Made by a program: the position numbers and the translations under genes. The notes beneath the pieces were generated by a model that worked only from the letters and a program-made list of their open reading frames with translations, was not told the origin of the DNA and searched no databases. A stretch of DNA of 64,000 nucleotides from Phycisphaerales bacterium. GTDB taxonomy: Bacteria; Planctomycetota; Phycisphaerae; Phycisphaerales; SM1A02. The stretch is from contig JABAAL010000013.1 of assembly GCA_014238785.1 (NCBI GenBank), positions 1 through 64,000 on the forward strand, given 5' to 3'. Within the stretch, counting starts at the first letter, position 1; each line of letters starts with the position of its first letter. Below are positions 2,118-5,560 of the stretch, piece after piece.

Positions 2118-2309
2118 GGGTTGCCGTGCGATGCATACACAGTAGGTGAGCTCAAACCCGGTACCATAAAGGTGGGTTCGTTAGTCATCATTCCAAGTCT
2201 TCCACTCCAGCAACGCTGTGAGGCATGACTATCGATGCAACTATAACGATCCCTGAGGGTTCGATAGGATCGAGCACAAACACTCTGCGTATACATCGCA
2301 CGGCAACCC
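2118..2309. other. Intergenic element with 21-nt inverted repeat ends; possible structured RNA or MITE-like element
   Basis: GGGTTGCCGTGCGATGCATA at 2118-2137 (plus C2138) is the reverse complement, at 20 of 21 positions, of 2289-2309. The 192 bases between and including them contain further complementary segments: AACCC..ACC/GGT..GGGTT around 2154-2178, GTCAT/ATGAC, CAGC/GCTG, and CGATCC/GGATCG near 2251-2276. The one mismatch in the long stem is C versus A on the plus strand, which becomes a G-U pair if the minus strand is transcribed. In that direction it would end at the 2062-2091 hairpin. I recognise no known RNA family, and no clear target-site duplication is visible. Confidence 0.5.
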
Positions 2310-2363
2310 TAGTACAAGTCATCCATACAATACCATTACCGCCATGTGTCGCAAGGAATATTT

Positions 2364-3629
2364 TTGAAAACAGAACACAAAACCCAACATACGCGTGAAT
2401 TAATCGCATGGGCATTTCTTCCAATGATGATGGGAGCAATCGAAGGTGGCGTTGTAGGCGTACTTACGAAACGGATGTTCGATGGCGTTGTTGATGATAG
2501 CATCCTTGACTGGTCCGTTGCTTCACTTGCTGCTGCGCAGGGCTTCGCTAGTATTTCTAGTTTCCTTTGGGCTGCATTCAGTCATGGGCGCCACAAGATT
2601 CGATTCATAACTGCGCTAAAAATTGCCTGCGTTCTTTTGGTTGGCGTAGTTTCATTTGTCCCACAATCACCGTTTGGACTCGCCCTTCTTTTGTTTTGCG
2701 TTATTGGAACAAGGGTTTGTTACACCGGGATCGTAACATTAAGAACTACCGTTTGGCAAGCAAATCACCCTCGTGCAAGCCGAGCGTTTGTTGCTGGACG
2801 AATCGCAACCGTCCAAGCACTTGTACTTGCTGCTGTTGGATTTGGTGTTGGCGAAGCAATGGATTTAAATGAACAGGCAATTCGTTGGGTCTATCCTGTT
2901 GCGGCAAGTTTCGGCATATTGGGAGCTTGGATTTACAGCAAAATTCGTGTTGAAGGGCACCAAGAAATTTTACAAGATGAACGTAAGTCACCTCAACTTG
3001 TCTCGTTTTTTCCATGGAAAACACTTCATCTTTTATTTGAAGATACGCAGTTTGCAATGTACATGGCATGCCAATTTATTTTCGGCGTAGGCAATTTAAT
3101 GCTCACCGCTCCACTTGTCATTATTCTGAGTGAACAGTTTGAACTAACGTATCTTGGCGAAATATTAATCGTCTCAACAATTCCAATTTTGATGATTCCA
3201 CTAAGCACGCTCTTTTGGGCAAAGCTACTACGGAGAATGCATATTCTTTCTTTTCGCTCCATTCACAGTTGGTTCTTTGTAGCCTCGTCAATATGCATCG
3301 GCGTGAGCATCGCAACGCATAGCATCGCTGGGCTCTGGGTAGGTGCGGCAATTCGTGGCATCGGTTTTGGAGGTGGTGTACTCGCTTGGAATCTCGGCCA
3401 CCAAGATTACGCGCCAGTTGAACAATCAGCAAGATACATGGGGCTTCATGTGACGTTGACCGGAATACGTGGCCTCCTTGCACCTGCTTTTGGCATGGCT
3501 CTGTATTCAATACTTATGAGCAAGGGCTACCAAGCTGGCCCACTTGTCTTTTATGTTGGTGCAATGCTCTCGGCAATTGGCGGTATTGGCTTTATTTTGC
3601 TTGCAAAAGCCCGTTTATCAAGTAATTAG
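2364..3629 (+). CDS. MFS-type membrane transporter
   Basis: About 421 residues with roughly twelve hydrophobic segments spread along the chain, separated near the middle by a charged loop (about residues 195-225). This is the major facilitator topology. The start is probably the TTG at 2364, with AAGGA six bases upstream. The frame can be read from a GTG at 2346, but nothing like a ribosome binding site precedes that. Short basic loops such as SHGRHKIRF after early helices fit the MFS pattern. The substrate is not predictable. A weak hairpin, CCAAAA/TTTTGG at 3635-3655, follows the stop codon. Confidence 0.75.
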   Translation: MKTEHKTQHTRELIAWAFLPMMMGAIEGGVVGVLTKRMFDGVVDDSILDWSVASLAAAQGFASISSFLWAAFSHGRHKIRFITALKIACVLLVGVVSFVPQSPFGLALLLFCVIGTRVCYTGIVTLRTTVWQANHPRASRAFVAGRIATVQALVLAAVGFGVGEAMDLNEQAIRWVYPVAASFGILGAWIYSKIRVEGHQEILQDERKSPQLVSFFPWKTLHLLFEDTQFAMYMACQFIFGVGNLMLTAPLVIILSEQFELTYLGEILIVSTIPILMIPLSTLFWAKLLRRMHILSFRSIHSWFFVASSICIGVSIATHSIAGLWVGAAIRGIGFGGGVLAWNLGHQDYAPVEQSARYMGLHVTLTGIRGLLAPAFGMALYSILMSKGYQAGPLVFYVGAMLSAIGGIGFILLAKARLSSN

Positions 3630-3721
3630 CTATTCCAAAAGGTGTGCCGTTTTGGTAGGATGTATGGCTCGCCTGTGTTTTTCAGCAGGCATGTGAAAAC
3701 CCGCTTTTTTTAGATTTGAGC

Positions 3722-5560
3722 ATGTTGTTCAAAAGGAAAGTGGCTCACACCAAGCAACTGCGCCAGCGACCCCGCAGCCAAGCAAGAAATACCGTCGCAA
3801 CCCACATGGTAGACCACAATCTAATCGCGGATATTGGAATTGATTTTGATGATGTCGATGCACTTATTCTCTCTGCTCTTGGTGAAGATGTTGCAGCAGG
3901 AAATATGGACACCCTCATCTCAGACGAAATCCAACAACTCATCCCCGGAAATATGCTCAAGGGCAAAATCGTTGGTAAAGCTGGCGATGATGCTGTCATC
4001 GACGTAGGCCTTAAATCGGAGGGACTCATTCATAAGAGTGAGTTTGACGATTGGGATACACTTGAATCCGGCGTTGTCATCGAAGTTATTCTTGAAGATA
4101 TTGAAGATGCAAATGGCATCATCAAGTTATCTAAGCGTAAAGCAGACCGAATCCGAAACTGGGAGAAGGTACTTGAAACATACAACGAAGGTGACATCGT
4201 AGAGGGCAAAGGCATTCGACGAATTAAAGGTGGAATCCTCGTCGACATTGGCGTCCCTGCGTTCCTCCCTGCTTCGCAAATAGATGTGCGCCGCCCTGGT
4301 GATGTGAATGAATTCCTTGGCAAAACAATTCGTGCCGAAATTCTAAAAATCGACGAGCCACGTCGAAACATTGTTATCAGTCGTCGAACGCTTATCGAAA
4401 ACGAACGAGACGAAGCTAAACAACGATTACTCAATACAATCAGCGAAGGTGACATCATCGTGGGCAAAGTCACAAACGTTGCTGAGTTTGGTGCGTTTGT
4501 TGATCTTGGCGGTATTGACGGATTGCTTCACGTAACCGACATGAGTTGGGGACGTATCAAACACCCAAGTGATATCTGCAAAACTGGCGATGATATCGAA
4601 GTAAAAGTATTGAAAGTAGATTTCGATACCGAAAAAATTGCACTTGGGCTGAAGCAAAAAGAATCTTCTCCATGGGATGATATCGAGGGTCGATTCCCAA
4701 TTAAAACAAAGGTAACTGGCAAAGTTGTAAACCTTGTGAGTTATGGTGCATTTGTACACCTCGAAGATGGCGTTGAGGGTCTTGTGCATGTTTCCGAAAT
4801 GTCCTGGCGAAAACGAATCAACCATCCGAGCGAAATTGTTTCGCCTGGCGATGAAATTGAAGTAATCGTACTTGACATTGACAAAAATAAACATGAAATT
4901 TCACTTGGCATGAAGCAAGTTGAAAACAACCCATGGGAAGTTGTTGCAGAGAAGTACCCAATCGGAACGATTGTTTCTGGTGCCGTACGCAACTTGACGA
5001 ACTATGGCGCATTTGTTGAAATTGAACCTGGTATTGATGGCTTACTTCACGTGAGTGATATTTCATGGACTGAGAAAATCGCTCATCCAAACGAAAAGTA
5101 CAAGAAGAGCGATGTTGTTGAATGTATTGTTCTAGAAATTGACCAAGAAAAACAACGCATCTCACTTGGCATGAAACAAATGCAAGAGGATCCGTGGCAA
5201 AATGCTATTCCTGAAGCATACAAACCAGGCATGGTCGTTCACGGAAGTGTTACCAAAATTACAAACTTCGGCGTCTTCGTTGAACTTGAAGACGGGCTGG
5301 AAGGGCTCCTTCACATATCCGAGCTTGCTGACAAGAAAGTGGATAACCCACAAGATATTGTTAAACCAGGTGAAGAAGTGAATGTTAAGATCCTTCGCGT
5401 TGACCTTGAAGATCGAAAGATTGGCCTTTCACTCAAGCGGGCACTGTCCGGCGAAGATGTGGAAGAAGATTGGGAATCACATGTATCAAAAGGTGACACC
5501 CCAGAACGTGGCGGTATGGATGATCATGGCGCACTTGGCACTGATAAAATCGAACTGTAA
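3722..5560 (+). CDS. rpsA: 30S ribosomal protein S1
   Basis: About 612 residues with six consecutive S1 RNA-binding domains from about residue 70 to the end. The repeats carry the typical pattern G.V...T.FGAFV.L..G..GLLH.S....W, for example VTNVAEFGAFVDLGGIDGLL and VTKITNFGVFVELEDGLEGL. The protein recruits mRNA to the small ribosomal subunit. The start is uncertain: an in-frame TTG lies at 3716 and an ATG at 3809, and none has a clear ribosome binding site. The first 30 residues are unusually basic (KRKVAHTKQLRQRPRSQAR) for S1, so the ATG at 3809 is a real alternative. A strong terminator follows directly. Confidence 0.95.
   Translation: MLFKRKVAHTKQLRQRPRSQARNTVATHMVDHNLIADIGIDFDDVDALILSALGEDVAAGNMDTLISDEIQQLIPGNMLKGKIVGKAGDDAVIDVGLKSEGLIHKSEFDDWDTLESGVVIEVILEDIEDANGIIKLSKRKADRIRNWEKVLETYNEGDIVEGKGIRRIKGGILVDIGVPAFLPASQIDVRRPGDVNEFLGKTIRAEILKIDEPRRNIVISRRTLIENERDEAKQRLLNTISEGDIIVGKVTNVAEFGAFVDLGGIDGLLHVTDMSWGRIKHPSDICKTGDDIEVKVLKVDFDTEKIALGLKQKESSPWDDIEGRFPIKTKVTGKVVNLVSYGAFVHLEDGVEGLVHVSEMSWRKRINHPSEIVSPGDEIEVIVLDIDKNKHEISLGMKQVENNPWEVVAEKYPIGTIVSGAVRNLTNYGAFVEIEPGIDGLLHVSDISWTEKIAHPNEKYKKSDVVECIVLEIDQEKQRISLGMKQMQEDPWQNAIPEAYKPGMVVHGSVTKITNFGVFVELEDGLEGLLHISELADKKVDNPQDIVKPGEEVNVKILRVDLEDRKIGLSLKRALSGEDVEEDWESHVSKGDTPERGGMDDHGALGTDKIEL

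Follow-up and report, generated by a model that had tools for sequence, protein, structure and literature searches.

A divergent 6S RNA gene predicted beside an ECF sigma/anti-sigma pair in a Phycisphaerales bacterium

Positions 2118–2309 of the 64,000-nucleotide stretch of DNA analyzed here (the window) almost certainly hold the genome's single 6S RNA gene on the minus strand, as judged from model matches, covariation, copy number, synteny and a conserved promoter-like element upstream. The window copy is a divergent but ordinary 6S RNA and belongs to a known RNA family. Positions 2000–2450 were scanned against Rfam with an E-value threshold rather than the default gathering threshold. RF00013 (6S/SsrS RNA) was the top match, covering the model over its full length (model positions 1–187) from 2307 to 2119 on the minus strand at 43.4 bits (E = 1.4e-7); one chance-level snoRNA was the only other Rfam match in this region. 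Because the score lies 3 bits under the curated gathering cut-off of 46.4, the scan at default thresholds returned no match anywhere in the window. The copy was also missed when RF00013 was searched across the organism's own genome, probably owing to a first-look filter, and was detected by the direct scan of the region. The original prediction had been unable to match the element to 6S RNA, and in this it was wrong.

In the alignment to RF00013, the closing stem, both bubble strands (GCUC-GAUCC and CCCACCU) and the apical arm all find their counterparts in the family (Table 1). The consensus structure and pair counts gave the layout of a 6S RNA, a rod of ~200 nt with a closing stem, a central bubble and an apical arm. 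With RF00013 6S/SsrS RNAs the window copy shares the match to positions 1–187, the closing stem, the bubble strands GCUCGAnCC and CCCACCU, the apical arm, a length of ~190 nt and single-copy occurrence. Unlike RF00013 members above the cut-off, it falls 3 bits below and adjoins an ECF sigma/anti-sigma pair and an MFS transporter gene.

Table 1. Features of the predicted 6S RNA gene and its flanks (window coordinates).
Feature	Position	Strand	RNA nt	Remarks
6S RNA gene	2118–2309	minus		mature RNA ~192 nt; model matches span 2116–2311
Closing stem, 5' strand	2281–2309	minus	1–29	helix 1; 21/23 pairs changed on both sides (genus)
Closing stem, 3' strand	2118–2144	minus	166–192	
Helix P2, 5' strand GUGCUCGAUCC	2267–2277	minus	33–43	strongly conserved in 56 sequences; predicted product-RNA template
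Central bubble, 5' strand	2254–2266	minus	44–56	RF00013 alignment
Internal (apical) arm	2174–2253	minus	57–136	helices 3–6 of A1, 7–10 of A3; compensatory pairs
Small hairpin ACC-UUUAU-GGU, central bubble 3' strand	2163–2173	minus	137–147	
Helix P2, 3' strand GGGUUUGAGCUCA	2147–2159	minus	151–163	its GGGUUUG has the alternative partner CGAACCC (5' bubble)
Predicted extended -10 promoter TGGTATTGT	2327–2335	minus		recurs identically or with small changes upstream of most genus copies
Degenerate counterpart of the G005 terminator hairpin	2063–2085	minus		weak or not functional here

The element had been picked out for its inverted ends. The 21-nt ends were confirmed to pair at 20 of 21 positions; the sole mismatch becomes a G-U pair on the minus strand, and the end helix extends further through GCAG and CTGT, both as had been claimed. 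Within the 64-kb window, 2118–2309 was the only interval spanning 100–259 bases whose 21-nt ends pair at 20 or more positions, and five shuffled controls contained no comparable ends. The minus strand folds at a minimum free energy of -91.4 kcal/mol, compared with -55.6 kcal/mol for shuffles (z = -8.75); the z-score for the plus strand was -6.26.

Within the genus, two-sided changes were counted in 27 of 58 pairs against 13.0 in shuffles (0/500 shuffles reached 27), and 92.1% of cells were paired, compared with 32–41% in slid controls. Covarying pairs had been proposed as a check on the end stem, and helix 1 supplied them (Table 1). Across the order, two-sided changes occurred in 46 of 58 pairs, 90.9% of cells were paired (68.3% in shuffles) and the covariation score was 0.474 (0.146 shuffled), in an alignment that was fitted to the structure and is biased towards it. 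The closing stem tolerates sequence change, with partner bases compensating, and conservation is strong in P2 and the bubble, as would be expected if their sequence contacts the polymerase and templates a product RNA. Among the 56 order-wide sequences, the bubble motifs CCCAC, GGnUUYGAGC and GCUCRANCC were present in 51, 44 and 36, respectively. The ACC-UUUAU-GGU hairpin is invariant in the genus; order-wide, only 63.6% of its cells are paired.

Homologues were sought with DNA searches and with Rfam and lineage-specific models. DNA search detected the element a single time in its own genome (1.81 Mb, 97% complete) and in 11 of the 12 genomes searched from the same genus. At E 0.1 or better, RF00013 had matches in 30 of the 101 genomes from the order, 7 of them over the cut-off; most genus relatives, scanned whole, gave no reported match at E 0.1. 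In G013, a genome of another genus, the DNA match and the RF00013 match fell on the same locus. Model R1 was built from 12 aligned genus copies (the window and relatives) without any Rfam data, and scored the window copy at 196.9 bits on the minus strand and 39.8 bits on the plus strand. All 30 RF00013 loci from the order were recovered by R1, with position and strand in agreement. The covariance-model search of relatives advised at the outset thus returned a single R1 copy in 87 of the 101 genomes of the order, including 13/13 of the genus. Four near-complete genomes of another genus in this order (G037, G042, G046 and G050; genus g26) matched neither 6S model; loss or strong divergence of 6S RNA in them is possible.

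Model R2, built from 56 order-wide copies, also detected copies in families that lie outside the order but within its class or phylum. Seven such distant copies were checked with Rfam. Six scored as 6S RNA above the cut-off (53.5–86.9 bits) and the seventh reached 31.8 bits, so that an unbroken series of homologues leads from the window copy to undisputed 6S RNAs. The lack of R2 matches in other classes was not taken as absence, since only six candidates per genome were scored there and RF00013 finds many copies in those classes. In a sample of 392 genomes from the phylum, RF00013 had matches at E 1e-4 or better in 161 (101 over the cut-off), which makes 6S RNA common in the phylum. A match on a Doudnabacteria contig, from an exact-pattern scan of genome contigs, was set aside as chance: ~0.5 such matches are expected at the size of the collection, and R1 finds nothing there.

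Three other readings were weighed. The element is very unlikely to be a 6S-like RNA that binds RNA polymerase core rather than holoenzyme, as does Ms1 of Actinobacteria, a polymerase-binding structural relative of 6S RNA (PMC9130861): its conserved bubble and P2 strand sequences match RF00013, no Ms1-type family was among the Rfam matches for positions 2000–2450, where the only additional match was the chance-level snoRNA, and the lineage grades into copies scoring as high as 86.9 bits as 6S RNA. Still less credible is a new structured RNA class that merely resembles 6S RNA; the sub-threshold Rfam score speaks for it, but independent models reciprocally recover the same loci, and agreement with the RF00013 model in length, arm layout and bubble sequences extends from end to end. 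The near-perfect inverted ends prompt the reading of a MITE-like mobile element bounded by terminal inverted repeats; this has next to no probability and was rejected on copy number and covariation, given that the genome holds one copy with no dispersed set of others, that relatives likewise have a single copy each, in a conserved position, and that compensatory changes occur throughout the stem. The original prediction had offered either a new structured RNA gene or a MITE-like element and had proposed a copy count to separate them; the structured RNA gene, on the minus strand, was upheld, its novelty was not, and the single copy excluded the mobile element.

Members of the 6S family mimic an open promoter, sequester the holoenzyme and release it upon product-RNA synthesis (PMC8876501, PMC8414754). 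The window 6S RNA probably works in this standard way. By analogy with the family, it would mimic an open promoter, bind the holoenzyme form of RNA polymerase that contains the primary sigma factor, and keep this enzyme sequestered during slowing growth. Once nucleotides are available again, the polymerase would copy a short product RNA off the bubble and the P2 strand. Alignment to RF00013 points to the 5' strand of P2 as the putative template and places the probable product-RNA start at U44–U46 (window 2264–2266), the exact base being imprecise. The predicted product RNA is 5'-AUAGGAUCGAGCAC, or two bases shorter, in the sense of window 2264–2277. P2 would then unwind and the polymerase would be let go.

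An alternative helix of 7 bp can form between CGAACCC of the 5' bubble strand and GGGUUUG of the P2 3' strand. It is paired in 84/84 cells in the genus and in 89% order-wide, figures that come from near-invariant bases, so that covariation argues neither for nor against it. A "central bubble collapse helix" has been described for Bacillus and Aquifex 6S RNAs (PMC8876501), and the resemblance of the CGAACCC/GGGUUUG helix to it suggests that release of the window 6S RNA probably follows a route of the Bacillus/Aquifex type. In Bacillus subtilis 6S-1 and Aquifex aeolicus 6S RNA the collapse helix joins the 5' bubble strand and the P2 3' strand, as is possible in the window RNA, whereas here it is predicted only, from near-invariant bases. 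Bacillus subtilis 6S-1 also has a small hairpin in the 3' bubble strand (PMC8876501), as does the window RNA.

Transcription is expected to start near 2320, downstream of the predicted promoter TGGTATTGT. A consensus scan requiring both hexamers found no promoter in the window, and the promoter call therefore rests on conservation. Upstream of several 6S copies in other families, TGGTATAAT or GGTATAAT was found. A terminator-like hairpin had been placed at 2062, but folding there is weak (-2.8 kcal/mol, z = +0.55) and a terminator scan found none. In the close relative G005 the homologous site does form a sound hairpin (-12.4 kcal/mol, z = -3.05); in two further copies from the genus, a T run stands directly at the end of the 6S RNA.

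6S RNA has been stated to be absent from two planctomycete species, as the work of Wehner 2014 is cited in PMC5673643, and our literature search found no paper reporting 6S RNA in planctomycetes. Among the 101 genomes from the order, 7 yield 6S RNA at standard Rfam cut-offs and 87 with the lineage-specific model, which constitutes an annotation gap. Published absences in some planctomycetes may thus partly reflect model sensitivity, and the better 6S model now allows them to be re-checked. One tentative joint proposal, with somewhat less than an even chance of holding, is that Planctomycetota carry 6S RNA as a rule and that release in this order is switched mainly by a fixed bubble-collapse helix.

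The gene order around the element is ECF sigma factor (682–1245), anti-sigma factor (1229–2065), 6S RNA (minus strand), MFS transporter (2346–3629) and rpsA (3716–5560). The 6S RNA gene is linked to the anti-sigma and MFS genes in 13/13 genomes of the genus, and the ECF sigma gene is also present in the genus loci wherever the sequence compared extends far enough; across the genus, the sigma/anti-sigma pair (682–2065) converges on the 6S RNA gene. Linkage to the MFS gene reaches other genera and families. This gene lies beside the 6S RNA gene, mostly divergently, in many genera of the family (2346–3629 in the window; L043, L047, L049, L051, L053, L077 and L079), an unusual, long-lived neighborhood. 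A lipoprotein-like open reading frame of ~110 aa with a shared motif, absent from the window, lies between the 6S RNA and MFS genes in several relatives (L047:1796–2128, with the 6S RNA on the minus strand; L070; L072).
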